Assembly (NCBI RefSeq): GCF_000817735.3
Contig: NZ_JTJC03000001.1
Span: 505,710-569,709, forward strand
Direction: 5' to 3'
DNA: 64,000 nt
Source: Scytonema millei VB511283
Lineage (GTDB): Bacteria; Cyanobacteriota; Cyanobacteriia; Cyanobacteriales; Chroococcidiopsidaceae
Below, one piece after another: positions 41,333-55,917 of this stretch; positions within the stretch are counted from its first letter, which is position 1; every line of letters starts with the position of its first letter. Below the pieces are notes generated by a model that was not told the DNA's origin, made no database searches, and saw nothing but the letters and a program-made list of their open reading frames with translations. The translations under genes were made by a program, and so were the position numbers.

Positions 41333-44116
41333 TCACAGCCAATTCCCTACCAAAACGTAGGGTGCCCAGTAAACTGGATGGCGATAGCGGGGATTTTGTA
41401 GTAGAGCGAGTTGAGCGCGGCGGAGTGCCTCGGCTTTTGTCATTTCAGCCGTAGATAGCTCCTGGTAAAACTGACTCATTAATGGTACGGTAGCGGCATC
41501 GCTGACATACCAGAGAGTCGCCAAGGTGCTACGCGCTCCGGCTCGTACTGCTACTCCAGCCATACCAAGCGCAGCTCGTCTATCTCCAGCGACGGTACGA
41601 CAGCCGCTTAACACCAGAAGTTCGATCGCGTTTGGTCGTTCTAAGTCCGAGCTAGGTTCGCGTACCCGCAGAAGTTCGTCTAACTGCTTAACATTGATCG
41701 GTCCATCCCAAGCGAGAATATATGTTTGATCGGCTTGCGAGCCAAACTGAGCGTGACTGGCGATATGGACGATGGAAAAAGGCAGAGATTTAATTTGGTT
41801 TCTGAGCGATGTGCTAGTGAAATTTTGATTGAGTAGCTCTCTTCCTGGCACTTCCGAGCGAATTTGATTCAGCTCTAAGGCTACATTCGTCAGCGCTGGA
41901 TAATCTCCTCGCGGTTCGGTCAATCCAGCAGTCAAGGCTCTCAAACGCTCTCGGCTTAAAGGTTGGGGCTGGAGTAATTCTAGACTGGGTGTGAGAGCGA
42001 CGCTATATTTTTGAACGAGAAACTGTTTGCCATCGTGCAGAGCCGCCATTGGTAGTTTCTGCAAGGAAATATCCAGCACGAATACCAAAGTTTTTACACC
42101 ACTCTTATCGATGTCAGCGGCGGCGGGTCGGATTAACCAGTCATAAACTTGTTGGGAGAGAGTCAAAAAGTCTTGAGAATAACGGATCACTAAATTTTGC
42201 CGTAACTGGTCGATCGCGCTTTCGACTTGAGTGCGAGGTAAAGCCGTGGCATAATGGCGTAAAGGTTGCTTGGGCAAGCTGAGAATAACTTCCAAACGGT
42301 CTTCTAAAATTACCGGATAAATCACAGCCGCTTGAGGATCGACGCGATCGATTTGAGTGGGCTGGGTATCCAAACAAGCTGCTCGAAAGAAATCGACGAG
42401 TTCGGCAGCTTTGAGAGATTCAAAGACGCTACGCGCTTGGTTGAGATTGTCTTGGCTCGGTTGAGTGCCATCATCTTGCAGCAGCAACCCGACAAACTGC
42501 CGATACACGGGTTCTACGCTCTCGCGGAAAGAAAACTGCACGCTGGGGTTGATGCTAACAAGATCGTTACGCAGAGATTGGAGAGTTTTCACCGCATCGG
42601 CATAAGCCGCGATCGCACCTTTATTATCTTGCTCCGCTTTCAGCAGCCTTCCTAACTGCCATTGCCAGCTATAAGCAATATCTGGAGCATCGATTGACTG
42701 AGTAATCGATAGTGCTTGCTGAGTCAGTTTTTTTGCCTCTGCCAACTGTCCCACCTGTTCGTACAATCCACCCAAGCTACCCAAAGCATAAGCTTCAGCT
42801 CGCGGATCTTTCAAACTCCGTGCCTGTTGCACCGCAGTCGCTAAGACTTTGGCAATTTCTTGGGTTGACGGTTGACGGTTAACGGTTGACGGTTGTTGCT
42901 CCTCTGCGCCTCTGCTTCCCTGCGTCTCTGCTCCCTCAGCTTTCTTCCCCCTACTCCCTGCTCCCTGCTCCCTGCTCCCTAACTTCATCAAACTATCCGC
43001 AAAGTTAATATGCGCGTAAACCGTAGCTCGGCTGGGAGGTAGTTGGGCTAGTTGAGTTTCGATTTGAGGAATTAATTCTCGGGCGGCTGAATCTCGTTGA
43101 GTTTGACTTAATACTTGCAGTTGATTGAGTTGAGCTTGAAGCTTAGTATTGGCAGTAGGAGCAGACTTTTCTGCTTGTTGATAGTAGTCTAAGGCTGCGT
43201 CGGTGTCTCCTTGAGCGCTGACCGTGTTACCTAAACTCAAGAGCGTTGCTGCGGTTTCTGGCGCAGAAGGTAGGCTTTGGGCAATTTGCAAACTTTCTTG
43301 TAGGGTTTTGCGAGACTGTTCCAGATCGCCAACTTGTTGTAGGACTTCTCCCAGGCTGCGCAAACTGACTGCTTTAGTGAGAGAAGCGGGAGTGTTACGC
43401 AGAGATTGGTTGAGTTCGGTCGATTTTGTCAAGGCACGGCTATAAAGCCCCATCGCCCGTAACGCTTGGACGGAATTAATCTGACTGCGGATCTCTCCTG
43501 CTTTATTACCAACTTGAGTATAGAGCGCTGCCGATCGCCCCCAAGTCTCGATCGCTGTTTCTGCTTCCCCTGTTAGTAGTTGCAATCTGGCTTGGATGTC
43601 TAAAGCTTGGGCGAGAACTTCTTGGGTGCGGGAGTCGGTAGGGGCGCACTGCTGTGCGCCCGTACAGGGGAGTCGGGATTCGGGGGTTTTCTCTGCTGCG
43701 TATCCGAGCAACTTGAGACTCTCATCGATCGCCTGTTTTGCTTCTGTCCAAGCGCCGAGTTGTTGATATGTTAGCGAGAGATTACTCAAAGCTAGGGCTT
43801 GCTTGAGAGTATCGTTTTTAGCACGGTAGTCTTGCAGTGCTTGTTGCAAGACATTGACTGCCTCTGCATACTGACCCGTATCGTAAAATGTTTTACCTTG
43901 TTGCAAGCGATCGCCCGTCTGTGCAATTGGGATTGACTGACTGGGAATCGTTGCAGATGGAGCGGGAATTTTGGCGATCGCGGGTACTTGTGTCGTACAC
44001 AGCAATGCTACCAGGGCAAATAAGCTATATATAATTCGTTTTCTGTTGAAATAGATAGGCTCTAGTTGCGATCGAAAATGGGAAGAAACAGATTTTTTTC
44101 TATGCGAGTTTTTCAT
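41333..44116 (-). CDS. TPR-CHAT protein (caspase-like protease domain)
   Basis: 927-aa protein. An N-terminal hydrophobic segment (RIIYSLFALVALLCTTQVPAIA) suggests export or anchoring. Several TPR units follow from about residue 75 (GKTFYDTGQYAEAVNVLQQAL, SNLSLTYQQLGAWTEAKQAI, SLGEVLQQVGDLEQSRKTL). The C-terminal CHAT domain has the predicted catalytic His788 (HIASHAQFG) and Cys839 (VLSGCRTV), both intact, as in separase-like peptidases. Two repeat-derived insertions are read in frame: a GAQQCAPT block and a long Gly/Ser/Glu/Gln linker. It lies just downstream of the first exoprotein gene on the same strand, suggesting joint function. The start at 44116 (MKNSHRKK) is preferred over an ATG 45 bp upstream. 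Confidence 0.88.
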   Translation of the reverse strand: MKNSHRKKSVSSHFRSQLEPIYFNRKRIIYSLFALVALLCTTQVPAIAKIPAPSATIPSQSIPIAQTGDRLQQGKTFYDTGQYAEAVNVLQQALQDYRAKNDTLKQALALSNLSLTYQQLGAWTEAKQAIDESLKLLGYAAEKTPESRLPCTGAQQCAPTDSRTQEVLAQALDIQARLQLLTGEAETAIETWGRSAALYTQVGNKAGEIRSQINSVQALRAMGLYSRALTKSTELNQSLRNTPASLTKAVSLRSLGEVLQQVGDLEQSRKTLQESLQIAQSLPSAPETAATLLSLGNTVSAQGDTDAALDYYQQAEKSAPTANTKLQAQLNQLQVLSQTQRDSAARELIPQIETQLAQLPPSRATVYAHINFADSLMKLGSREQGAGSRGKKAEGAETQGSRGAEEQQPSTVNRQPSTQEIAKVLATAVQQARSLKDPRAEAYALGSLGGLYEQVGQLAEAKKLTQQALSITQSIDAPDIAYSWQWQLGRLLKAEQDNKGAIAAYADAVKTLQSLRNDLVSINPSVQFSFRESVEPVYRQFVGLLLQDDGTQPSQDNLNQARSVFESLKAAELVDFFRAACLDTQPTQIDRVDPQAAVIYPVILEDRLEVILSLPKQPLRHYATALPRTQVESAIDQLRQNLVIRYSQDFLTLSQQVYDWLIRPAAADIDKSGVKTLVFVLDISLQKLPMAALHDGKQFLVQKYSVALTPSLELLQPQPLSRERLRALTAGLTEPRGDYPALTNVALELNQIRSEVPGRELLNQNFTSTSLRNQIKSLPFSIVHIASHAQFGSQADQTYILAWDGPINVKQLDELLRVREPSSDLERPNAIELLVLSGCRTVAGDRRAALGMAGVAVRAGARSTLATLWYVSDAATVPLMSQFYQELSTAEMTKAEALRRAQLALLQNPRYRHPVYWAPYVLVGNWL
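42863..42980. repeat. In-frame heptamer repeat block in the CHAT gene
   Basis: GGTTGAC units followed by CTCTGCG and CTCCCTG units, all in coding sequence. They are read as a roughly 40-residue low-complexity linker between TPR units. Confidence 0.85.
43638..43665. repeat. In-frame 28-bp palindrome in the CHAT gene
   Basis: GTAGGGGCGCACTG / CTGTGCGCCCGTAC, imperfect, flanked by GGGAGTCGG motifs on both sides; encodes GAQQCAPT. Confidence 0.9.
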
Positions 44117-44149
44117 ACCATTGATTTTTAAACGCGATAACGACGATCT

Positions 44150-44194
44150 GTAGGGGCGCACAGCTGTACGCCCCTAAAAATTGTGCGCCCCTAC
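44150..44194. repeat. 28-bp palindrome with an extra half copy
   Basis: GTAGGGGCGCACAG / CTGTACGCCCCTAA followed 3 bp later by a lone right arm TTGTGCGCCCCTAC, just upstream of the CHAT gene start. Confidence 0.88.
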
Positions 44195-44354
44195 AGATAT
44201 GTTTTGCATCCTTTTCCTACCGATCCTCACGGACGATTTCTATGTACAACTGGAGGACTAGGGGGAATCGTACCATTTACGGCTCAAAACCAGCATTAAC
44301 TAGTCATGAATATTTAGCCGTAAATTTTCAATGACAAATTTTAGATTGTGAATT

Positions 44355-47300
44355 TCACGAACCTTGGCATGAGGTAGGTGAACTGTATCCGCGAGTGGTA
44401 GCTGAGGGTGCAGTCGTCAGGATCACCTTGCCATCGAGATCGAATTGCCAAGATGTGGCTTCCTGAATGGGTTCTACAGGAGTTGTTGCAGTCTGCGTTA
44501 CCTCTGGGATACTTGACTCTACTGCGGCACGGTTTTGAGTTTCCGGCGTTTGCAGAGTTGCCCAATCGGTGAGGAGAGCATCAGGACTGAGTTTATCCCC
44601 TGGTGCGGGGGGTAACCCGCCACGTCCGGCGACGGTGAAGCGATTCTCTACTCCCGAAGGACACCCGGCTGCGACTAACGTGGAGGCATCGACCAATCCC
44701 GTAGGTAGTTCCACAATGTCTCGACTGGGATCGATATCAGCAGCGTTAAAGGTGACAGTACCGCTCAGAGAAGGATTAGTTTGAGAGATTGCGGTAATGT
44801 CGTTACTGGGTAGGCGGCTAGGATCTAACTGTGTCGGATCGTCAGTTCCCAACAAAGCCTGGAGTTCTTGACGCGAGAGTGGCGTGAAGCCAACGATACT
44901 ATCGGCTGTAATATCGACCCTACCACCATTGCCACTGAATGCATTTGCAGTGATATCGTTATTGCCATCAGAGTTGGCAATGATGAGGGGAGTATTAATT
45001 GTGATATTACCCCCATTACCAGGTTGTCGGTTCGTCCCTGCTGTGGTTGATATTTGACTGTTATTACGCAGTCGTATTCCTTTGTTAGCTCGTAGTTGAA
45101 TGTTACCGCCATCGCCTGAAGTGGTGATGGCAAAGATGTTACCTCGATCGAGGTTGAGCGATCGCACATCTACATCGATATTGCCTGCACTACCCTGTCC
45201 GACGAGGCTGCTGCTATTCAATTGAGCGCCATTAGTTAAAGAGAGCGATCGCCCCCGAAGGCGAATATCTCCACCTTGGCGATCGCCTCTTAACTCTGAA
45301 GTTCCTGAAATACTACTGAAAACGCTACTGGGAAGGTTATTGGTTCCTACACCATCCAAAACAATAGCATCGCGGGCATCAATCGTGACGTTGCCAGCGT
45401 TGCCTTGACCGAGGGAGCTAGCAGAGATTATCCCACCATTAGTCAAAGATATGGAGCCAGCTGCTACATTGACGTTACCACCATTGCCTACAGCTTGCGG
45501 TTGAACGGCGCTGAAAACCCCGCTACTAAATCCTCTATTACTCGTTCCATCAATGGAGAGGAGATCGCGGACATCGAGCGTGACGCTGCCAGCATCTCCT
45601 TGGCTAAAGGTGCTAGCAGAGATATTGGCTCCGTCTTTTAACGATAAAGAGCCTGTCGTGAGGCTGACATTGCCACCTTTGCCTACGCCTCCTTCCAAAT
45701 TGCTGAAGATCCCGCCGCCAACCAGTGGACCTGTACCATCGAGATTAGTGTTATTTGCTACATTGACTGTAATGTTACCAGCGTCTCCTTCACCCCCAGA
45801 ATTAGCATTGACTTGAGCGCCATCATTTATGGATAGCGATCCAGCACTCAAGTTAATGTCACCCCCCTTGCCTTTGCCAGTCGCTTCTACGGTGCTAAAA
45901 ATGCCACTTCTGAAGTTGCGATCGATCTCACTAATGCCAACCAAATCGACAGCATCGCTCACATCGATCTCTACATTACCTGCATTGCCCTGCCCCGAGG
46001 TACTAGTCGTGAATTGAGCGCCATTAGTCAAAGAGAGCGATCGCGCTTTGAGCTTAATATCGCCACCTCTACGTCCGCTTTCCGGTTCGGATGTTCGATC
46101 CAACACGCTTAAGACTGAGCTAGGCAAACCATTAGAGCCTACTCCGTCAAATGAAACGCGATCGCCAGCCGTAATTGTAATATCACCTGCACTACCCCCA
46201 CTAGTAGAAATGGCTTGCAATATCGAACCGCCGCTGGCAGAAATTCCCTCGGTGGTATTGACTTCTATATTGCCAGCATTACCTTTTTCCCTGGTTGAAG
46301 TCGCTATTTGCGTTCCATTTGTTAACGACAGCGATCGCCCATTGAGGCGAATATTTCCACCCAAGCGATCGCTTTGTATCTGTGGAATCTCGCCTAAAAA
46401 AGTAGAATTGCTCGGTATGTCTGATGGTAGAGCTAAAATGCTCGCTACTGCACCTCCATCAAAAGAAATGCGATCGCCAGCCGTAATTGTGACGTTACCA
46501 GCATTTCCCTGACTGTAGGAAGCAGCCTGCAACACTGAGCCGCCACTCACAGAAATACTTCCTGTGGTGTCAATTTGAATATTACCTGCATTACCTCTAC
46601 CAAGAGTGGAAGTGGCGATTAGCGAACCGTTAGAGAGGGACAGCGAGCCTGCACGGAGGCGAATGTCTGCACCGTTGCCAATCCCCGATGGTGCTACAAC
46701 ACTCAATAATCCACCACTAACTCCGGTAATGGATACTCGATCTCGGGCTTGGATATCAACCCTACCAGCGTTACCTTGTCCGTTAGTGAGCGAACCAACT
46801 TGGGCATTACCGATAATATTTAAAGAACCTGTGGCGATCGAAATATTACCAGCATTTCCCGAACCGAATGTTGAGTTTTGGATACCGCTACTAGAAGTTG
46901 AGGAACTCGTGCCGTCCACGGTGACTGTATCTCTAGCATTAATTTCTATATTTCCTGCTTGAGAGTCAACTGTCCCTTGAAATATTCCAACCACCAAGCT
47001 ACTTCTATCTGAAATACTGAAGTTTCGAGCATTGACGCTAATGCTACCACCATTGCTGGCAACCGTTCTCACATTGGCTGCGTTTGTGAGCGATATGTCT
47101 GATAGGGTTAAATCTGTAGGAAAGCTGAAGCGGAAACCACTGGGATCGGGATTAATTCCTACCACACCTGGAGCGGCGACTGCACCTAATTCTACACGTC
47201 CACCCGCAGCAGTTATGTCTCCGCCTTCTAAGCTGATATTCCCACCAATTAGCCCTATCGTTCTCCCAGGCTGTACCTGTAAACCGAAAGTACTAGCACG

Positions 47301-47870
47301 ATTGACGATATTCCCTGGATTCGTGCCAAATTGCAAACCCAAGGGAACGCTGACGGTGAGTAGCGGCGCACCTGTATCTGGGGTAGCGCTAAACTGCGTT
47401 CCATCAGCAAAGTCGATACTGTTAGCTGTCGTGGCAATGAAGGAACCACCGACTATGAGTCTGGCGTTTTGACCGAAAATAATCCCGTTGGGATTGAGTA
47501 GGAATAAATTCGCCGTACCTCTTGCTGCTAAAATGCCGTCAATCTCAGATCTGGAGCTACCCGTAACTCTGGTGAGGATATTTTGAATATTTGCTCCGTT
47601 GTCAAATAAAGCTGCCCGTCCATTGGGGATGGAAAATTGCTCGAAGCTATGAAATAAATTACTTCCCCGCGTGGCTCCACCAGAAATTGTATCTATACCA
47701 TCTGGGCTGGAGTTGACTATAGAATTATCTACGCCTAGAGTATTATCAGGTCTAATTGGGCTATCCGGTGGAACTTGAGCTAGCGTAAGACTCCCACTAG
47801 CGATCGCGCTTCCTACCACTACACCAACTAATCCTAGCCTGAGTGCCTCACACCAAAATATTCGCGTCAT
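44355..47870 (-). CDS. Two-partner-secretion exoprotein (haemagglutination-activity domain) 1
   Basis: 1171-aa very large exoprotein. A signal peptide (MTRIFWCEALRLGLVGVVVG...LTLAQ) is followed by a TPS domain: NLFHSFEQFSIPNGRAALF, IQNILTRVTG, NLFLLNPNGIIFGQNARL and GGSFIATTANSIDF, which guides export through a TpsB porin. The rest is a long beta-helix of short repeats (QGNAGNVTI, LSLTNGAQ). It ends DIVELPTGLVDASTLVAAGCPSG and a Thr-rich tail, also seen in the second copy. A TTG 42 bp upstream is in frame; ATG 47870 has GAGGAGAA before it. It probably forms an adhesin or surface fibre. No TpsB gene is in the window. Confidence 0.9.
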   Translation of the reverse strand: MTRIFWCEALRLGLVGVVVGSAIASGSLTLAQVPPDSPIRPDNTLGVDNSIVNSSPDGIDTISGGATRGSNLFHSFEQFSIPNGRAALFDNGANIQNILTRVTGSSRSEIDGILAARGTANLFLLNPNGIIFGQNARLIVGGSFIATTANSIDFADGTQFSATPDTGAPLLTVSVPLGLQFGTNPGNIVNRASTFGLQVQPGRTIGLIGGNISLEGGDITAAGGRVELGAVAAPGVVGINPDPSGFRFSFPTDLTLSDISLTNAANVRTVASNGGSISVNARNFSISDRSSLVVGIFQGTVDSQAGNIEINARDTVTVDGTSSSTSSSGIQNSTFGSGNAGNISIATGSLNIIGNAQVGSLTNGQGNAGRVDIQARDRVSITGVSGGLLSVVAPSGIGNGADIRLRAGSLSLSNGSLIATSTLGRGNAGNIQIDTTGSISVSGGSVLQAASYSQGNAGNVTITAGDRISFDGGAVASILALPSDIPSNSTFLGEIPQIQSDRLGGNIRLNGRSLSLTNGTQIATSTREKGNAGNIEVNTTEGISASGGSILQAISTSGGSAGDITITAGDRVSFDGVGSNGLPSSVLSVLDRTSEPESGRRGGDIKLKARSLSLTNGAQFTTSTSGQGNAGNVEIDVSDAVDLVGISEIDRNFRSGIFSTVEATGKGKGGDINLSAGSLSINDGAQVNANSGGEGDAGNITVNVANNTNLDGTGPLVGGGIFSNLEGGVGKGGNVSLTTGSLSLKDGANISASTFSQGDAGSVTLDVRDLLSIDGTSNRGFSSGVFSAVQPQAVGNGGNVNVAAGSISLTNGGIISASSLGQGNAGNVTIDARDAIVLDGVGTNNLPSSVFSSISGTSELRGDRQGGDIRLRGRSLSLTNGAQLNSSSLVGQGSAGNIDVDVRSLNLDRGNIFAITTSGDGGNIQLRANKGIRLRNNSQISTTAGTNRQPGNGGNITINTPLIIANSDGNNDITANAFSGNGGRVDITADSIVGFTPLSRQELQALLGTDDPTQLDPSRLPSNDITAISQTNPSLSGTVTFNAADIDPSRDIVELPTGLVDASTLVAAGCPSGVENRFTVAGRGGLPPAPGDKLSPDALLTDWATLQTPETQNRAAVESSIPEVTQTATTPVEPIQEATSWQFDLDGKVILTTAPSATTRGYSSPTSCQGS

Positions 47871-48066
47871 TTCTCCTCTTCCTGCTCGTTCCGCTTGTAT
47901 CTTTTTAGACAACTAACTTAGTGTCCAAGGCTACACTGCCTAAAGAGATATTGCCAGAAAAGTCATCTATCTGTGATTAAGAATGCTTGCAAGGGTGTAG
48001 CGAAGTTGAACGAAGCGATCGCATTATTTCTATCTAAAGCAATTCGCGATCGCATATATGACACTG

Positions 48067-48094
48067 GTAGGGGCGCACAGCTGTGCGCCCCTAC
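48067..48094. repeat. Perfect 28-bp palindrome upstream of the MazE-like gene
   Basis: GTAGGGGCGCACAG plus exact complement, 38 bp before the GTG start. Confidence 0.95.
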
Positions 48095-48132
48095 AGTCTG
48101 TAGGATAGAAAAGTATTCATTAGCGATCCCAA

Positions 48133-48354
48133 GTGGCTACAGAAAAAATTTCCGTCTCTCTCTCCTCATCTTTGGTGAGATTTATTGAGACTTACAAGAA
48201 TACACATCAGCATAAATCCCACTCTCAGGTAATTGAAACAGCCTTGCAGTTGTTGCAGCAGGAGTTAGAAGCAGCTTACCGCAAAGCAAACCAAGAGATT
48301 GATTTTGATTGGGAAGTGACTGTTGCTGATGGTCTTGCCGATGAAACGTGGTGA
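48133..48354 (+). CDS. MazE-like ribbon-helix-helix antitoxin
   Basis: 73 aa with a GTG start. KISVSLSSSLVRFIETYKNTHQHKSHSQVIETALQLLQQ is a ribbon-helix-helix DNA-binding unit. The C-terminus AYRKANQEIDFDWEVTVADGLADETW is the toxin-binding tail seen in cyanobacterial antitoxins paired with MazF/PemK toxins. The toxin that should overlap its end survives only as an 8-codon remnant, so the antitoxin is orphaned here. It may protect against a related MazF elsewhere or act as a solitary regulator. Confidence 0.82.
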   Translation: MATEKISVSLSSSLVRFIETYKNTHQHKSHSQVIETALQLLQQELEAAYRKANQEIDFDWEVTVADGLADETW

Positions 48355-48367
48355 GATTTACTCTTAA
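48341..48367 (+). pseudogene. MazF/PemK toxin remnant
   Basis: The ATG at 48341, inside the antitoxin's last codons, reads MKRGEIYS then TAA. MKRGEIY is a common N-terminus of MazF/PemK endoribonucleases. Immediately after, another frame reads TLNPSI, matching the next part of such toxins (e.g. LxLNPTIGSE), so a small deletion or frameshift broke the gene. Nothing further of the toxin is recognisable before the exoprotein gene. Confidence 0.65.
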
Positions 48368-48395
48368 CCCATCAATCTACATCTTCAGCTTTGAG

Positions 48396-51300
48396 CTATG
48401 AACTAGGGCAGGAAGTCGGTGTTGTCTTTAAATGACTTGATGATGTGGTATCGCCGCTAGTAAGAATTATCGCGCCGTTGCGATCGTATTGCCAGGATGT
48501 GGCTTCAGTTATGGTTTCTACGGGTGGAGTAGGTGTAGTATTAGTTGCTACTGGGGTAGTTGTTTCTACTGCGGCACGGTTTTGAGTTTCTGGTGTTTGC
48601 AGAGTTGCCCAATCGGTGAGGAGGGCATCAGGACTGAGTTTATCTGCTGGTGCAGGGGGTAAGCCGCCGCGTCCGGCGACGGTGAAGCGGTTTTCGGCTC
48701 CAGATGGGCATCCTGCTGCGACTAAAGAGGAGGCATCGACCAATCCTGTTGGTAGTTCCACAATATCGCGGCTGGGGTCGATATCGGCAGTATTAAAGCT
48801 GACAGTACCACTGAAGGAAGGATTTGTGAGGGAAATTGCTGCTACATCATTACTAGATGAGTTATTTAAGAAGTTGAGAAAGTCCTCTGCTGTGGGTGTA
48901 TCAGTGCCTAACCGAGATTGAAGTGTTTCACCGTCAATTCGGTTTAGTCCAAAAATGCTTTGAGCATTAATTTCGATCGTACCGCCTTTGCCATTAAAAG
49001 CATTAGCAAAAATATCGTTATTACCCTCTTGCTCTCCTTGACCAGCAATAACCAAGGGAGAGTCAATTGTAATGTTGCCACCATTTCCACCTTGTCCCTC
49101 GCTTCCTGCTTCGGTTGTGATATAACTACCTTTGCGTAACCTCACACTTTTACTTGCTTGCAATCGGATATCCCCACCGTCACCTGATTCAGAGCTGGCG
49201 AGGATACCACCGTTATCGAGATTAAGGGTGCGAACGTTTACAATGATGTTCCCTGCATCTCCTGTTCCAAAGTTACTGGCATTCAATCGACTATTATTGC
49301 TAAGAGAGAAAGATCGGGCTTTAATGTCAATTGTACCGCCGTTACCCACTGCCCCAGTTTGAACTGTAGTGAAAACTCCGCTGCTACCACTAGCACTGAA
49401 AGCATCGCGCACGTCAATAATTACCTTGCCACCATTGCCACGTCCACCTGACAGTTTATTCTCATGTCCCTCGATAGCAGCAATAATTTGAGCACCATCA
49501 GTGAGAGAGAGCGATCCTGCTTTGATGTCAATCGTACCGCCATTGCCTTCTGCTTCAGGCGACACAGAGCTAAAAATATAACTACTTGAGAGCAAAATAA
49601 AATTATCTGCTTGCAAGAAGACGTTTCCAGCATCTCCTTCTCCAAAAGTGCCAGCAGTCAATGAAGTATTATTCTCTAATGAGATCGAGCGCGCTTTGAG
49701 CGTGATGTCTCCACCTCGACCTGTGCCTCCTACTTCCAAGCTACTAAATACACTACTTCCGTCAAAAGTAATACGATCGCTAGCAGTAATAGTTACGTTA
49801 CCTGCATTTCCCCGTCCGGCATTACTAGTCTCCAGTAGCGAGCCATTGGTGAAAGAAACTGTTGGTGCTGAGATTTGGATGTCGCTACTATTACCTACTG
49901 CATTAAAATCTGTATTCGTCAAAATCGCACTTGCCGAAAAAGAAATCGAGTCATCCGCTTCGATAGAAACAACTCCTGAGTTGCCTTGTCCATTGGCAAA
50001 AAAACCAGCTTCTATCTGCGTTCCCTCGTTTAAGGACACGGTTTTAGCTTTGATGCGGATATTGCCAACATCTCCCTTTGCTGGTTGTCTCTCCAGACTT
50101 CCTATATTGCTCACAAGCTCGCTGTCTGATAAAGAAAGTGATTGTGCTGTAATAGTTATGTTGCCCGCATTTCCCTGTCCGGCATTACTGGTTTTTAGCA
50201 GAGAGCCATTGGTGAAAGAAACTGTTGGTGCGGAGATTTGGATGTCGCTACTATTACCTACTGCATTAAAATCTGTATTCGTCAAAATCGCACTTGCCGA
50301 AAAAGAAATCGAGTCATCTGCTTCGATAGAGACAATTCCTGAGTTTCCTTGTCCGTTGGCAAAAAAACCAGCTTCTATCTGCGTTCCCTCGTTTAAGGAC
50401 ACGGTTTTAGCTTTGATGCGGATATTGCCAACATCTCCCTTCGCTGGTTGTCTCTCCAGACTTCCTATATTGCTCACAAGCTCGCTGTCTGATAAAGAAA
50501 GTGATTGTGCTGTAATAGTTATGTTACCTGCGTTTCCCTGTCCGGCATTACTAGTTTTTAGCAGAGAGCCATTGGTGAAAGAAACTGTTGGTGCTGAAAT
50601 GAGGATGTCGCTACTATTACCTACCGCATTAAAATCTGTATTCGTCAAAATTTCACTTGCCGAAAAAGAAATCGAGTCATCCGCTTCGATAGAGACAATT
50701 CCTGAGTTTCCTTGTCCGTTGGCAAAAAAACCAGCTGCTATCTGCGTTCCCTCGTTTAAGAGCACAGTTTTAGCTTTGATGCGGATAGTGCCAACATTTC
50801 CCTTCGCTGGATTTCCCTGGGAGCTGCCTACATTACTGAGGAGAAAGCTGTTATTTAAGGAGACAGTATCTTGCGCCCGCACGTCTATGCTACCTGCATT
50901 ACCTTGTCCAAGGGTGGAAGTTGTAAGTCTCGCTCCATTAGTTAATTCTACCGATCGCGCCTTAATAGCGACATTACCACCGTTACCAGTAGCGTTTTCC
51001 CTAACACGGCTGAAAATTGTACTGCTATCTAAGGAGACGCTATCCGCAGCAGTTATATTAACATTGCCTGCATTACCAGTGCCAAAGACGCTGGCAGAAA
51101 TCACACCACTATCAGTTAAGGATAAAGAACCAGTATTAATGTCAATATTGCCACCTTTGCCTGTGCCACCCTCGTCTACATTGTTGAAGACCCCACTAGA
51201 AAACCCTCGCTGGCTTCGTCCGCCAATTGCGATTGTGCCTTGAGCATTAACGTCTATATCTCCTGCTACAGCCCCAACCACTTCTTGATTTTCGCCAATG

Positions 51301-52214
51301 CCAGCAACTAGTTCGCTACCTCCAAATAAATTTAAGTTACGGGTATTAACTGAAATATGACCACCACCTCCAGCACTGACATTAACTATTGAGTCATTGG
51401 TCAGCGATATGTCTCCTAAAGTGAGGTCTGTAGGAAAGCTGAAGCGAAAACCACTGGGATCGGGGTTAATTCCTACCACTCCTGGGGCGGCTACTGCGCC
51501 TAATTCGATTCGTCCGCCTCTAGCAGTTAACCAACCGCCTTCCAGATTTATGCTTCCGCCAATCAACCCCAGGGTTTTTCCTGGTTGTACCTGCAAACCT
51601 ACAACAAAATCGTTGCTGTCAGCAGATCGAGAACGATTGACAATCTCCCCTGCACCAGCACCAAACTGTAAACCCAAGGGAACGCTGACGGTGAGTAACG
51701 GCGCACCTGTACCTGGTGTAGCACTAAACTGCGTTCCATCAGCAAAGTTGATACTGCTTGCTGTCGTCGCAATAAACGAACCACCAACATCCAATCTGGC
51801 ATTCGGACCGAAAATAATCCCGTTGGGATTGAGCAAAAATAAATTAGCTGCTCCGTTGGCTCTAATCAAACCATCAATATCAGATACAGAGCCACCTGTA
51901 ACCCTACTAAGAATATTTTGAATATCTAAATCATTGCTAAAAATAGCTGCTCCGTTGGTCGGAACCGAAAACCGATCGAAACTGTGGAATAAATTACCAC
52001 CCTGCCTAGTTCCACCAGTAATTGTCTGCTCACCGCCACTGATACCACTGACAGCAGAACCAACAGTATTGTCTGGAACAACTTGAGCCAGCGCAGGACT
52101 CCCAAATACAACAGCACTTCCAAATACGTTAGCGAAGCTTAACGAAGTTATCGCACCAAACAACCCTAGCCGCGCGCACCAGCGCCCAGCAACTGAAGAT
52201 ATTTGCAAATACAT
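48396..52214 (-). CDS. Two-partner-secretion exoprotein 2, with 121-aa tandem repeats
   Basis: 1272-aa exoprotein closely related to the first. Signal peptide (MYLQISSVAGRWCARLGLFG...SPALAQ), TPS domain (NLFHSFDRFSVPTNGAAIF, IQNILSRVTGGSVSDIDGL, NLFLLNPNGIIFGPNARL), then a beta-helix. Residues coded by 49795-50883 form three near-identical 121-aa units (TNGSLLKTSNAGQGNAGNIT..., NEGTQIEAGFFANGQGNSG), the most regular part. The C-terminus again carries DIVELPTGLVDASSLVAAGCPSG. A TTG 45 bp upstream is possible. It probably forms a long surface fibre; repeat number may vary between strains. Confidence 0.9.
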   Translation of the reverse strand: MYLQISSVAGRWCARLGLFGAITSLSFANVFGSAVVFGSPALAQVVPDNTVGSAVSGISGGEQTITGGTRQGGNLFHSFDRFSVPTNGAAIFSNDLDIQNILSRVTGGSVSDIDGLIRANGAANLFLLNPNGIIFGPNARLDVGGSFIATTASSINFADGTQFSATPGTGAPLLTVSVPLGLQFGAGAGEIVNRSRSADSNDFVVGLQVQPGKTLGLIGGSINLEGGWLTARGGRIELGAVAAPGVVGINPDPSGFRFSFPTDLTLGDISLTNDSIVNVSAGGGGHISVNTRNLNLFGGSELVAGIGENQEVVGAVAGDIDVNAQGTIAIGGRSQRGFSSGVFNNVDEGGTGKGGNIDINTGSLSLTDSGVISASVFGTGNAGNVNITAADSVSLDSSTIFSRVRENATGNGGNVAIKARSVELTNGARLTTSTLGQGNAGSIDVRAQDTVSLNNSFLLSNVGSSQGNPAKGNVGTIRIKAKTVLLNEGTQIAAGFFANGQGNSGIVSIEADDSISFSASEILTNTDFNAVGNSSDILISAPTVSFTNGSLLKTSNAGQGNAGNITITAQSLSLSDSELVSNIGSLERQPAKGDVGNIRIKAKTVSLNEGTQIEAGFFANGQGNSGIVSIEADDSISFSASAILTNTDFNAVGNSSDIQISAPTVSFTNGSLLKTSNAGQGNAGNITITAQSLSLSDSELVSNIGSLERQPAKGDVGNIRIKAKTVSLNEGTQIEAGFFANGQGNSGVVSIEADDSISFSASAILTNTDFNAVGNSSDIQISAPTVSFTNGSLLETSNAGRGNAGNVTITASDRITFDGSSVFSSLEVGGTGRGGDITLKARSISLENNTSLTAGTFGEGDAGNVFLQADNFILLSSSYIFSSVSPEAEGNGGTIDIKAGSLSLTDGAQIIAAIEGHENKLSGGRGNGGKVIIDVRDAFSASGSSGVFTTVQTGAVGNGGTIDIKARSFSLSNNSRLNASNFGTGDAGNIIVNVRTLNLDNGGILASSESGDGGDIRLQASKSVRLRKGSYITTEAGSEGQGGNGGNITIDSPLVIAGQGEQEGNNDIFANAFNGKGGTIEINAQSIFGLNRIDGETLQSRLGTDTPTAEDFLNFLNNSSSNDVAAISLTNPSFSGTVSFNTADIDPSRDIVELPTGLVDASSLVAAGCPSGAENRFTVAGRGGLPPAPADKLSPDALLTDWATLQTPETQNRAAVETTTPVATNTTPTPPVETITEATSWQYDRNGAIILTSGDTTSSSHLKTTPTSCPSS
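49795..50883. repeat. 363-bp tandem repeat, three copies
   Basis: The same sequence recurs at 49861, 50224 and 50587 (exactly 363 bp apart, 121 codons). The copies near 49.9 and 50.3 kb are almost identical; the third (50.6-50.9 kb) diverges at its far end. It is translated in exoprotein 2. Confidence 0.9.
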
Positions 52215-52604
52215 CTCTGCTATATAAATATTTAAGTTAATACCGATGACAGATGCCAAACCACCAATAACTATAAAATATTCACCGTAATAAAATAAAG
52301 CCCTAAAATCTGGAGAAATTGCGATCGCGCTACTTCCCCATACAACCAGGACAAAAATGTGCGATTCATCACATTTGCCCTTTATTTACACCATCTTCAG
52401 GAAAAAATCCAGACTAATTTGTAGTATTTACAATAAATGAACGAACCGAACTTTCGATAGAGGGAAAGCCGTATTATAAAAATACTTAACTTAATTTTTC
52501 CCTAATTGAAGTGCGATCGCGTCGTTTGCTACTCTCTGGCTTAGTTGAATTTCTATCCAGAAAAGCTAATCGGTATAAAAAATATCTGTCTACGGAGAAC
52601 TGCA
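52215..52604. other. Divergent promoter region of exoprotein 2 and the DUF928 gene
   Basis: AT-rich. It holds a CRP-like palindrome at 52355-52376 and a short inverted repeat GTATT-ATAAA-AATAC near 52471. No gene. Confidence 0.6.
52355..52376. promoter_or_regulatory. CRP/SyCrp1-like binding site
   Basis: 22-bp palindrome AAATGTG-N8-CACATTT. It fits the cAMP-receptor consensus TGTGA-N6-TCACA except for one base (TGTGC-N6-TCACA). It lies about 140 bp from the exoprotein start and 230 bp from the DUF928 start. Confidence 0.55.
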
Positions 52605-53507
52605 ATGAAGATTAAACCGTGGCTGAAGTACGTAATCCCGATCTTGGCAATTGGTTGTTTTGCCCCTGTAGTCCCTACAACGACGCAGGCTGCACCCGCT
52701 AAAGCAGTCCAAAATGCCCAGTCCGATTACGATAACTTCATGCGACAAGGCTATCTTGCCACTGCTCAACGAGACTATGAAACAGCTCTAGTCAATTTTC
52801 GCAAGGCTCTCAACCTCCGGCAAGGAAACCCCTACGCTACCAGAGCAATTAACAACATCAGTAGCTATCTTTCGCAGCGCGGCGAAGCTACAATTTCCTT
52901 CGTACCCCCGGAGTGGGGCGCACCAGGAAACCGAGTTGGTGGTGCAACGCGGGGCTGTTTTAGTGGCAAACAAGCACTCACAGCTTTAGTTCCAAATACT
53001 AATACGGGAACGACGATCGCCGCCCAACCTACCTTATCGTTCTACGTGCCTGCAAATAAAGCCGAACAACTAGAATTAGTCGTACTCAACGATAAACAAA
53101 AGATCCTGCACAAATCTATTGTTGCTTCGCCAAAAACACCAGGGATTGTCAGCATCAACATGGCGAAAATGTCAGGTGCGCCATCTCTAGAGACGGGGAA
53201 AAACTATCAATGGTATTTCTCCATGATTTGCGATCCAAAAGACCGTTCGGCAGACGTAGTTGTAGACGGCTGGATTCAACGAGTTGAAGCCGATCCGATT
53301 CTGCAAAGCGAAATTCAAAAAGCCAAACCGAGCGATCGCGTCTCTTTATATGCGGCAAATGGCATTTGGTACGATACAGTAGCGGCAATGGTGGCAAGCC
53401 GTCAATCGACACCCAATAATTCAACCGTATCGCGAGAATGGTCGGATTTACTCAAATCTGTGGGATTGGGTGCAGTGGCTCAGGCTCCAATTGTATTGCT
53501 GAATTAA
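52605..53507 (+). CDS. DUF928 protein with TPR-like helices, exported
   Basis: 300 aa. Signal peptide (MKIKPWLKYVIPILAIGCFA...QAA). A TPR pair (YDNFMRQGYLATAQRDYETALVNFRKALNLRQGNPYATRAINNI shortened here: GYLATAQRDYETALVNFRKA). Then the DUF928 core: PPEWGAPGNRVGGATRGCF, TIAAQPTLSFYVP and YQWYFSMICDPKDRSADVVVDGWI. DUF928 genes in cyanobacteria commonly accompany CHASE2 kinases and exoproteins; the function is unknown. The frame begins 60 bp earlier, but ATG 52605 follows GGAG with good spacing. It is followed, after heptamer repeats, by a CHASE2 kinase. Confidence 0.88.
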   Translation: MKIKPWLKYVIPILAIGCFAPVVPTTTQAAPAKAVQNAQSDYDNFMRQGYLATAQRDYETALVNFRKALNLRQGNPYATRAINNISSYLSQRGEATISFVPPEWGAPGNRVGGATRGCFSGKQALTALVPNTNTGTTIAAQPTLSFYVPANKAEQLELVVLNDKQKILHKSIVASPKTPGIVSINMAKMSGAPSLETGKNYQWYFSMICDPKDRSADVVVDGWIQRVEADPILQSEIQKAKPSDRVSLYAANGIWYDTVAAMVASRQSTPNNSTVSREWSDLLKSVGLGAVAQAPIVLLN

Positions 53508-53622
53508 GATTCGTTCAACTCACTCGATCGAACAAAGCAATTATGCCCCTTGTCCCTAAAGCACCCCATGATTACGATAATTATGGACGTGCTTAGGGAA
53601 TTCTTGCTAATGGTCAGTTATC

Positions 53623-53752
53623 AGGGAGCAGGGAGCAGGGAGCAGGGAGCAGGGAACGGGGAACAGGGGGAAGAGAGTTGAGGGAGTAGTGACTAATGAC
53701 CAACTACCAACTACCAACTACCAACTACCAATGACCAATGACCAACAACAGT
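53623..53752. repeat. GGGAGCA and CAACTAC heptamer repeat blocks
   Basis: Five GGGAGCA units (53623-53655) and four CAACTAC units followed by CAATGAC units (53698-53750), in the DUF928-kinase gap. Confidence 0.9.
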
Positions 53753-53784
53753 CATAATGCAAGATATGATAAATCAATATAAAT

Positions 53785-55917
53785 ATGCGCTTATTATCCA
53801 AAGCTTCTCAATTGAGTCGTCTACGTAAAATTACAGAGGCGATCCCACCCATATTAGTTGCTAGCGCAGCCGTCTGTGGCTTAGTTATTGGCGTGCGTCA
53901 CTTAGGACGACTAGAAGGACTGGAGCTAAACTATTTCGATCGCTTCGTTCAACTGCAACCTGATGAAGGTGCCGATCCGCGCTTGCTGGTGGTTGCCGTC
54001 ACGCAAGACGATATTCAAGCACTGGATCGCTGGCCCGCGTCCGATCGCACTATAGACCAGCTTTTACAAAAACTCAAACAATATCGCCCTCGGATCGTCG
54101 GCTTAGATATTTATCGCGATTTACCCGTAGAACCAGGGAATGTCGAACTGACCACGCGCTTGCAGGTAAACGATAACATTATTGCGGTGTGTAAAGTAGG
54201 AGACGATAAGGGTTTGGGAGTCGCACCACCGACAGTAGTTCCTAAAACTCGTTTGGGATTTAGCGATTTAGTCTTAGACCGAGATGGGGTAGTACGGCGG
54301 GGTTTGCTGTTCATGACCCCAGAAAAAACCTCTAAGTGTCCTGCTACGACCTCCTTTAGCTTGCAACTAGCGCTGAAATACCTCAGCCGACAGGGTGTTC
54401 GAGCGCAACTAACTCCAGATAAGAATTTAAAGATCGGTACAGCAACTTTTCCCGCGATCGCCAATAACAGCAGTGGTTATCAAAATGTTGATGCGAGAGG
54501 ATATCAAGTTTTAATCAATTATCGCTCTCCTACTGCCGTTGCTCGACAGGTCTCGCTCAGTGACGTTCTTTCCGATTCCATTAACTCCTCCTGGGTGGAA
54601 GATAAAATCGTTCTAGTTGGCGTGACTGCCACGGAGATCAAAGATTATTTTTATACACCTTACGACCTCAGCCAGCAGCCGGAAACGAAAGGAAAAATGG
54701 CGGGCGTACTCGTCCACGCGCAGATTTTAAGCCAACTGCTGAGTACGGTATTAGATGGGCGATCGCTATTTTGGTATTGGTCGGAAACGACAGAAATTCT
54801 CTGGATCTGGGTGTGGTCTTTATTAGGTGGGGCGATCGCTTGGTACGTGCGTCCCTCCTGGCTGCTGGGAGTCATTGGGGCAAGTGCTTTATTAGGATTG
54901 GGTAGTATTTGTTTCGTCTTGTTTCTCCAAAAAGGCTGGATTCCCCTCGTTCCTCCAGCACTTGGTTTAGTGGGAACAAGTGGGGCGATCGTGGCTTATC
55001 AAGCCTACTTCAAAGCGCGTCCAAGTGGAGCAAAAAATAATAATTCTGCGCCAGAAGGCTCTTTCTCATCACTCACCACAGCCGCAGGCACTCAAGCAAC
55101 TCGAACCATATTAAAGGAACGATATCAAATCGTGCGCAATATTGGTGCGGGTGGGTTCGGTCATACTTTTCTTGCCGAAGATACTCAACGTCCAGGTAAA
55201 CCCTATTGCGTCGTTAAGCAGTTGATTCCATCCACGGATGAGAGATATATGCAATTGGCGCGGCGCTTGTTTCAATCTGAAGCAGAAGCTTTAGAAACAT
55301 TGGGAAGCTTCGATCGCATTCCTCAATTGCTAGCTTACTTCGAGCAAGATCGACAATTCTATTTAGTAGAAGAATTCATCCAAGGACATCCTTTGAGTGA
55401 AGAATTGGTTCCAGGTAAACGCTTATCTGAAACTGAAGTTGTAGCCCTCTTAAAAGATATTCTACTCGTCCTCGATTTTATTCATCACCGCAGCGTCATT
55501 CATCGAGATATTAAACCCAGTAACATTATTAGAAGACGATCGGATAACAGCTTAGTTTTAGTTGATTTCGGCTCAGTCAAACAATTGCAAACTCAAATCA
55601 CGATGGCGCAGGAAAAATACACTGTGGCGATCGGTACGATGGGATATGCTGCACCAGAACAGTTTTTTGGTAAACCTGTCTTTAGCAGTGACATTTACGC
55701 CCTCGGTACAATTGGCATTCAGGCTGTCACAGGAATTCCTCCAACAGAATTAGAAGAAGATCCCACAACCCATGAAGTGATCTGGCGAAACCACGTCCCC
55801 GCAATTAATGACACGCTAGCGGCTATTTTAAATAAAATGGTGCGTTATTATCCCAGCAATAGATTTCAATCAGCAACCGCAGTTTTGAGAGCTTTGGAAA
55901 GCGTTTGTATATATTAA
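53785..55917 (+). CDS. CHASE2-domain Ser/Thr protein kinase
   Basis: 710-aa transmembrane receptor kinase. One N-terminal span (IPPILVASAAVCGLVIGVRHLG) leads into an extracytoplasmic CHASE2 sensor (about residues 40-325: YFDRFVQLQPDEGADPRLLVVAVTQDDIQALDRWP). Three spans at about 335-410 follow. The cytoplasmic kinase has a G-rich loop GAGGFG (from about 454), catalytic HRD 573-575 (VIHRDIKPSNI), DFG 594-596 and APEQF, all intact. It should sense an external or periplasmic signal and phosphorylate proteins. It lies next to DUF928 and the exoproteins. Confidence 0.92.
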   Translation: MRLLSKASQLSRLRKITEAIPPILVASAAVCGLVIGVRHLGRLEGLELNYFDRFVQLQPDEGADPRLLVVAVTQDDIQALDRWPASDRTIDQLLQKLKQYRPRIVGLDIYRDLPVEPGNVELTTRLQVNDNIIAVCKVGDDKGLGVAPPTVVPKTRLGFSDLVLDRDGVVRRGLLFMTPEKTSKCPATTSFSLQLALKYLSRQGVRAQLTPDKNLKIGTATFPAIANNSSGYQNVDARGYQVLINYRSPTAVARQVSLSDVLSDSINSSWVEDKIVLVGVTATEIKDYFYTPYDLSQQPETKGKMAGVLVHAQILSQLLSTVLDGRSLFWYWSETTEILWIWVWSLLGGAIAWYVRPSWLLGVIGASALLGLGSICFVLFLQKGWIPLVPPALGLVGTSGAIVAYQAYFKARPSGAKNNNSAPEGSFSSLTTAAGTQATRTILKERYQIVRNIGAGGFGHTFLAEDTQRPGKPYCVVKQLIPSTDERYMQLARRLFQSEAEALETLGSFDRIPQLLAYFEQDRQFYLVEEFIQGHPLSEELVPGKRLSETEVVALLKDILLVLDFIHHRSVIHRDIKPSNIIRRRSDNSLVLVDFGSVKQLQTQITMAQEKYTVAIGTMGYAAPEQFFGKPVFSSDIYALGTIGIQAVTGIPPTELEEDPTTHEVIWRNHVPAINDTLAAILNKMVRYYPSNRFQSATAVLRALESVCIY

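Follow-up and report, generated by a model that had tools for sequence, protein, structure and literature searches.

Five neighbouring genes in the cyanobacterium Scytonema millei VB511283 raise the question of whether exoproteins, a caspase-like peptidase and a membrane receptor can belong to a single genetic unit. The genes occupy positions 41,333-55,917 of a 64,000-nucleotide stretch of contig NZ_JTJC03000001.1 (positions 505,710-569,709), which is referred to below as the window. They encode a protein with TPR and CHAT domains (TPR-CHAT), two exoproteins of the two-partner secretion (TPS) type, a DUF928 protein and a CHASE2 receptor with a kinase domain. An earlier note on this DNA had read them as a surface-signalling locus. 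In our reading, the locus represents one form of a modular unit for surface signalling in cyanobacteria, built from two gene pairs, DUF928 with a CHASE2 receptor and TPS exoproteins with a CHAT peptidase. Gene families were called by Pfam, and all five genes were found intact and above Pfam cut-offs, as the note had described them.

Conservation of the gene grouping

The grouping was examined in 79 DUF928 loci from named genomes plus further loci, against two controls: 40 random 20-kb windows drawn from the genomes with DUF928 loci, and a rotation test in which gene positions in 13 near-complete genomes were rotated 500 times. Counts in the 13 genomes, which were picked for carrying DUF928 and should be read with that caution, are based on complete lists of DUF928, CHASE2 and TPS matches, minus the weakest partial CHASE2 matches, and on CHAT matches down to an E value of about 1e-41.

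CHASE2 was present in 27 of 36 DUF928 loci, compared with one of the 40 random windows, and that one window also held DUF928. The corresponding values were 17/36 and 1/40 for TPR-CHAT, and 13/36 and 1/40 for TPS. Within the 13 genomes, 42 of the 63 DUF928 genes had a CHASE2 gene within 10 kb (rotation mean 1.5, maximum 6), and 60 of the 102 TPS genes were fused to CHAT or had it within the same distance (mean 4.3, maximum 15). DUF928 was accompanied by TPS in 23 cases (mean 1.4, maximum 6) and by CHAT in 29 (mean 2.4, maximum 9). None of the 500 rotations reached the observed value for any of these four pairs. Distant cyanobacteria and plasmids also carry the members together, and the lack of conservation in relatives that would have refuted the earlier proposal was not observed. 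Both pairs are almost certainly real functional pairs.

Opposite strands and long spacers in the window might suggest that these genes are chance neighbours in a repeat-rich region. This explanation was rejected on the rotation and random-window controls, and paralogous loci of the same genome repeat the grouping; it is hardly credible.

DUF928 as a genomic partner of CHASE2 receptors

The window DUF928 gene (52,605-53,507, plus strand; PF06051, E 2e-64) encodes a predicted secreted protein with a signal peptide, TPR-like helices, an Ig/FnIII-like sandwich and C-terminal helices, an architecture resembling MtxA. It is followed on the same strand by the gene for the CHASE2 membrane receptor (53,785-55,917; CHASE2, E 9e-69; Pkinase, E 3e-35), whose cytoplasmic Hanks-type Ser/Thr kinase domain retains the glycine loop, the VK lysine, and the HRD and DFG motifs in its translation. 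Both the Pfam matches and the translation bear out the complete membrane CHASE2 kinase of the earlier note.

Among CHASE2 frames in the DUF928 loci, 101 of 109 were located within 1 kb of DUF928, 93 of them on the same strand, and the spacing of the two genes is operon-like. A crude rule recognized a hydrophobic stretch at the N-terminus, with a site resembling a cleavage site, in 108 of 135 DUF928 open reading frames. The output domains of the receptors in these loci are diverse and include histidine kinases with a receiver, cyclase, SpoIIE, protein kinase, AAA_35, GGDEF-EAL, TIR and CHAT. In a quick CHASE2 tree, which contains several long branches and places cyclase and short forms in a single class, "other", the output changed at least 16 times, with DUF928 retained throughout. 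As a genomic association, DUF928 is the constant partner of the CHASE2 receptor regardless of output domain. This partnership, and the status of the kinase as one output of many, had been missed by the earlier note.

The kinase was also considered as a regular member of the unit and rejected: a kinase domain was found in 4/36 DUF928 loci versus 5/40 random windows, and the two kinase-type receptors occupy separate places in the CHASE2 tree.

Pairwise distances among DUF928 proteins were correlated with those among the adjacent CHASE2 proteins (r 0.91; 0.81 with TPR-CHAT distance removed; shuffled maximum 0.12). Because shared ancestry contributes to this correlation, it supports co-inheritance rather than contact. 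Clade-by-clade matching of the two proteins was weak (adjusted Rand 0.1-0.3), and no direct DUF928-CHASE2 fusion was seen, the longest DUF928 protein among the frames listed having 405 amino acids (aa). The data suggest that DUF928 is a dedicated partner of CHASE2 sensors, and it is rather probable that the two proteins touch each other.

A structural comparison made without reference to gene neighbours points to a similar arrangement in proteobacteria. The AlphaFold2 model of DUF928 comprises a sandwich with C-terminal helices at residues 121-300 (predicted local distance difference test score mostly >90), preceded by TPR-like helices. Its top structural match was the C-terminal part of MtxA (4z29; Z 10.0 over 151 residues, root-mean-square deviation 4.0 Å; runner-up 7.3), which covers model residues 112-295, and by this match the DUF928 model shares an Ig-like domain followed by TPR helices. 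MtxA of Magnetospirillum, an exported protein, carries a signal peptide and combines an Ig-like domain with TPR, and a CHASE2-cyclase gene comes after mtxA (PMC4439547). The two systems thus have in common a gene for an exported Ig-like plus TPR protein beside a CHASE2 receptor gene; they differ in phylum, and TPS or CHAT genes are not mentioned in the passages of PMC4439547 consulted.

Several observations count against this interpretation of DUF928. In the 13 genomes, 21 of the 63 DUF928 genes had no CHASE2 within 10 kb. The likeness to MtxA is structural alone, at 14% identity, and a Z score of 10 is little above the 7 to 8 typical for models without clear relatives. When PDB sequences were searched with the DUF928 profile, 4z29 was absent from the matches, and no convincing sequence relatives of DUF928 or CHASE2 were found among solved structures.

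Other secreted partners stand beside CHASE2 genes in proteobacteria. A FecR protein gene adjoins the CHASE2-cyclase gene in all four alphaproteobacterial plasmid loci examined, a small sample chosen by match quality. On Sinorhizobium meliloti pSymB (locus L249, 273-3902), a FecR plus TPR protein is encoded directly upstream of the CHASE2-cyclase gene, and a C-terminal region resembling an outer-membrane barrel was noticed in it by eye. The biofilm-linked BiofilmReg operon of Burkholderia carries a LysM-FecR gene beside a CHASE2 histidine kinase gene (PMC5192318). It resembles the DUF928-CHASE2 arrangement in that a secreted partner is encoded next to the receptor, although the partner there is FecR and in the window DUF928. 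One profile comparison between DUF928 and a FecR protein encoded next to CHASE2 found no sequence homology.

TPS exoproteins and CHAT peptidases

The TPR-CHAT gene (41,333-44,161, minus strand; PF12770, E 1e-56) contains both dyad motifs, IVHIASHA with the histidine and LVLSGCR with the cysteine, in agreement with the intact His and Cys reported earlier. From its CHAT domain and this dyad, the product is a predicted caspase-like peptidase. Its N-terminus, IIYSLFALVALLCTTQVPAIA-K as read from the translation, is signal-peptide-like, and because of this export signal of its own the protein probably lies outside the cytoplasm. The exoprotein genes follow on the same strand (exoprotein 1, 44,355-47,912; exoprotein 2, 48,396-52,259). 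Both products match the TPS domain (PF05860, E 4e-62 and 5e-66) and TIGR01901, contain an NPNG motif and share 45% identity, which makes them tandem paralogues, the two related giant exoproteins of the earlier note. Each ends in a tail with two invariant cysteines around GRGGLPP (44,358-44,760 in exoprotein 1 and 48,399-48,800 in exoprotein 2; upstream limits approximate). The passenger of exoprotein 2 also contains a 363-bp in-frame repeat (49,786-50,810, minus strand) in 2.8 copies that are 94% alike.

Twenty-four of the 102 TPS genes in the 13 genomes run in-frame into a CHAT domain. For four of them the fusion was verified with Pfam, and examples of these single TPS-CHAT proteins are L212 3493-6171, L215 3839-7918, L225 4355-8521 and L227 4432-8793. 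In the fusions, CHAT forms the very C-terminal end of the protein, and the dyad is largely retained (His in 20/20, Cys by motif in 17/20). A strong separate CHAT gene was found within 10 kb of 36 of the 78 unfused TPS genes versus one of the 24 fused ones, and DUF928 within 10 kb of 27/78 versus 0/24. Among the sampled sequences, 57 of 63 complete unfused TPS frames contained a tail with two invariant cysteines and GxGG, as did none of 20 fusions; most of the six exceptions match the tail in a neighbouring frame, and these frames therefore look interrupted. At the level of gene association, TPS exoproteins are constantly accompanied by a putatively exported CHAT peptidase, whether as a fusion or as the product of an adjacent gene, and in the sampled frames the conserved tail is limited to unfused exoproteins.

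The earlier note had supposed that the CHAT peptidase may process or release the exoproteins. The link between the two is strongly supported by adjacency and by the direct fusions; cleavage or release would be a further step. The variable GxGG position is basic in 51 of 55 tails in which the motif was found. Cleavage after Arg or Lys is frequent among clan CD peptidases, a preference that fits (R/K)GG but proves nothing. Four tails have Ser or Thr in place of Arg or Lys at the proposed cleavage site, and a covariation check found no matching change in the acidic residues of the neighbouring CHAT proteins; both results speak against cleavage there, as does the low-confidence structure model of the tail, for which no fold is claimed. 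A conserved tail that lacks a confident predicted fold might fit a recognition site, the alignment being shallow. Judged from the sequences, the case for CHAT cleaving the exoprotein is evenly balanced.

Such an arrangement would have precedents. In the FhaB/FhaC two-partner secretion system of Bordetella, the exoprotein and its TpsB pore are complemented by dedicated surface proteases acting on the exoprotein, the subtilisin-like SphB1 or CtpA; the candidate protease here is CHAT, which is sometimes fused to the exoprotein. PorU, a caspase-clan surface peptidase, is paired with a conserved C-terminal signal of type IX cargo. This likeness is an analogy of working only, and there were no Pfam matches to PorU or type IX domains in the window proteins.

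The position of CHAT in the fusions, at the usual place of TPS effectors, might also indicate contact-dependent competition or predation, with the exoprotein delivering a CHAT effector in the manner of CdiA-type C-terminal toxins. Tandem, repeat-rich exoproteins and carriage on plasmids would agree with this. However, the separate TPR-CHAT bears an export signal of its own and would not have to be delivered; the unfused exoproteins show a conserved tail, not a polymorphic one; and neighbourhood clustering, a non-exhaustive search, revealed no recurrent immunity-like gene. We consider a competition system improbable.

As the earlier note stated, no TpsB exporter is encoded within the window. 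It is not missing from the genome (5.97 Mb in 17 contigs), where one ShlB/FhaC (TpsB) gene was identified on contig C3. Its product of 614 aa matches POTRA_2, ShlB and Omp85, and the gene is flanked by a paralogous TPR-CHAT gene and a paralogous TPS gene; a weaker second POTRA_2 match is located on contig C2. This genome has three long TPR-CHAT genes, each next to TPS genes, and three DUF928 genes, each in a locus that holds CHASE2 genes.

Possible coupling of the two pairs and comparison with known systems

The two pairs co-occur above expectation. On a plasmid of Pseudanabaena ABRG5-3, ShlB, CHASE2, TPS, CHAT and DUF928 genes are consecutive on one strand. A Nostoc C052 plasmid carries TPS, CHAT, DUF928, sigma-70, DUF1822 and CHASE2, and a plasmid of Anabaena cylindrica PCC 7122 carries ShlB followed by TPS, CHAT, DUF928, CHASE2 and DUF1822. 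A compact full set is not present at every plasmid CHAT match. On an Acaryochloris marina plasmid (L257, 5135-17606), genes for DUF928, a 1756-aa CHAT protein, two toxin-activating lysine-acyltransferases and a calcium-binding protein lie in a row.

We propose the following circuit. The exoproteins would exit by way of the TpsB pore, whose gene lies outside the window, and the exported TPR-CHAT protein would act on their conserved tail, with the basic residue of (R/K)GG as the probable point after which it cuts, thereby maturing, anchoring or releasing them. Secreted DUF928 would bind the outside part of CHASE2 and report the state of the envelope or of the exoprotein, and CHASE2 would switch the cytoplasmic kinase, which would relay the signal. 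The kinase may sense the state of the surface, as the earlier note supposed. We put forward the whole circuit, roughly in this form, tentatively and with slightly less than even confidence.

Some results weigh against coupling of the pairs. The linkage of DUF928 with TPS is looser than that within either pair: in the 13 genomes, CHASE2 was found within 5 kb of 38/63 DUF928 genes, and TPS within 5 kb of 5/63, which may mean that coupling between the pairs is no more than loose. Neither TPS nor CHAT genes occur near many of the DUF928-CHASE2 pairs. In the window, the exoprotein and CHAT genes are on the strand opposite to DUF928 and CHASE2, and the two pairs are therefore not one operon. The looser DUF928-TPS linkage, the many loci with one pair only and the lack of DUF928 near fused TPS-CHAT genes would suit two independent modules, a DUF928-CHASE2 sensor and a TPS-CHAT secretion and processing system, that often share neighbourhoods without mutual signalling. 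Against such independence stand the 23 DUF928 genes with TPS within 10 kb, compared with 1.4 by rotation, and the compact recurrence of full sets on unrelated plasmids, once as five consecutive genes including the exporter. Independent modules are a possible but rather unlikely alternative to the circuit.

Paralogous loci of the same genome recall a system already described. The gene order of the C4 locus is DUF928, TPR-CHAT, TPS, a sigma-like gene, DUF1822 and CHAT-CHASE2, and the CHAT-CHASE2 fusion is found in the paralogous loci C4 and C1:1.63 Mb. Profile searches built from the C4 paralogues located neither DUF1822 nor the sigma gene near the window locus. With a kinase replacing CHAT at its CHASE2 receptor, and without DUF1822 and the sigma-like gene, the window locus is a variant of the C4-type locus. 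Elsewhere, a 485-aa sigma-like protein without a Pfam match is encoded next to DUF1822 (L011, 12541-13998), and the gene in the equivalent position in Nostoc C052 is annotated as sigma-70 family. A 226-aa family (L084, 2119-2796), sigma-like by eye and likewise without a Pfam match, occurs in 22 sampled DUF928 loci and in no random window.

EACC2-caspase proteins with CHASE2, DUF1822 and an extracytoplasmic function (ECF) sigma factor were described by Kaur et al. 2021 (PMC8195603). As in those systems, a CHASE2 receptor and a caspase-like CHAT protein are combined here in one genomic unit, and CHAT-CHASE2 with DUF1822 is present at two other loci of this genome, so the window locus might be regarded as belonging to a conflict or programmed-death system of the caspase/EACC2 type. 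It differs in that its CHASE2 receptor drives a Ser/Thr kinase, its CHAT protein is separate, carries an export signal and is putatively exported, and cytoplasmic CHAT-CHASE2, DUF1822 and sigma genes are absent. Moreover, the outputs found in DUF928-CHASE2 pairs include cyclase, histidine kinase and SpoIIE, among others. It is unlikely that the window locus belongs to such a death system.

In the literature searched, the sole report of DUF928 beside CHASE2 is a WD40-CHASE2-DUF928 cluster of Nostoc punctiforme, presented as a single species-specific cluster with no claim of general pairing (PMC5587647). DUF928 appears only in that paper, and is thus not named in PMC8195603. Neither a general pairing of DUF928 with CHASE2 nor TPS-CHAT fusions were found in the same literature, which mostly lacks subscription journals, so that a prior description is possible. 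The component families are known and the CHAT-CHASE2/DUF1822/sigma variant has already been described; the DUF928-CHASE2 rule and the dichotomy of fused and separate TPS-CHAT appear to be new.

Noncoding parts of the locus comprise the divergent region between exoprotein 2 and DUF928 (52,260-52,604) and the DUF928-CHASE2 spacer (53,508-53,784). Heptanucleotide tandem repeats are located in this spacer (53,622-53,746) and within the TPR-CHAT coding sequence (42,863-42,980); similar low-complexity inserts were seen by eye in the C3 and C4 TPR-CHAT paralogues. An Rfam search of the region found no RNA families, and a promoter and terminator scan gave counts at the shuffled level.

A broader reading, which we regard as doubtful, would make CHASE2 receptors in general two-protein sensors with a secreted sensing partner encoded adjacently: DUF928 in cyanobacteria, and MtxA-like or FecR proteins in proteobacteria. 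The cyanobacterial receptors would monitor a TPS surface-protein system whose exoprotein is processed at the (R/K)GG tail by CHAT, fused or separate. Such a step, resembling those of sortases or PorU, is not known for two-partner secretion.

CHASE2 domains are widespread and their ligands are described as unknown (PMC10581220). DUF928, as a constant secreted partner, is a concrete and testable candidate for CHASE2 sensing. Filamentous cyanobacteria commonly encode CHAT proteins; if the proposed role in exoprotein processing is true, many of these proteins would gain a substrate and a setting other than programmed cell death.

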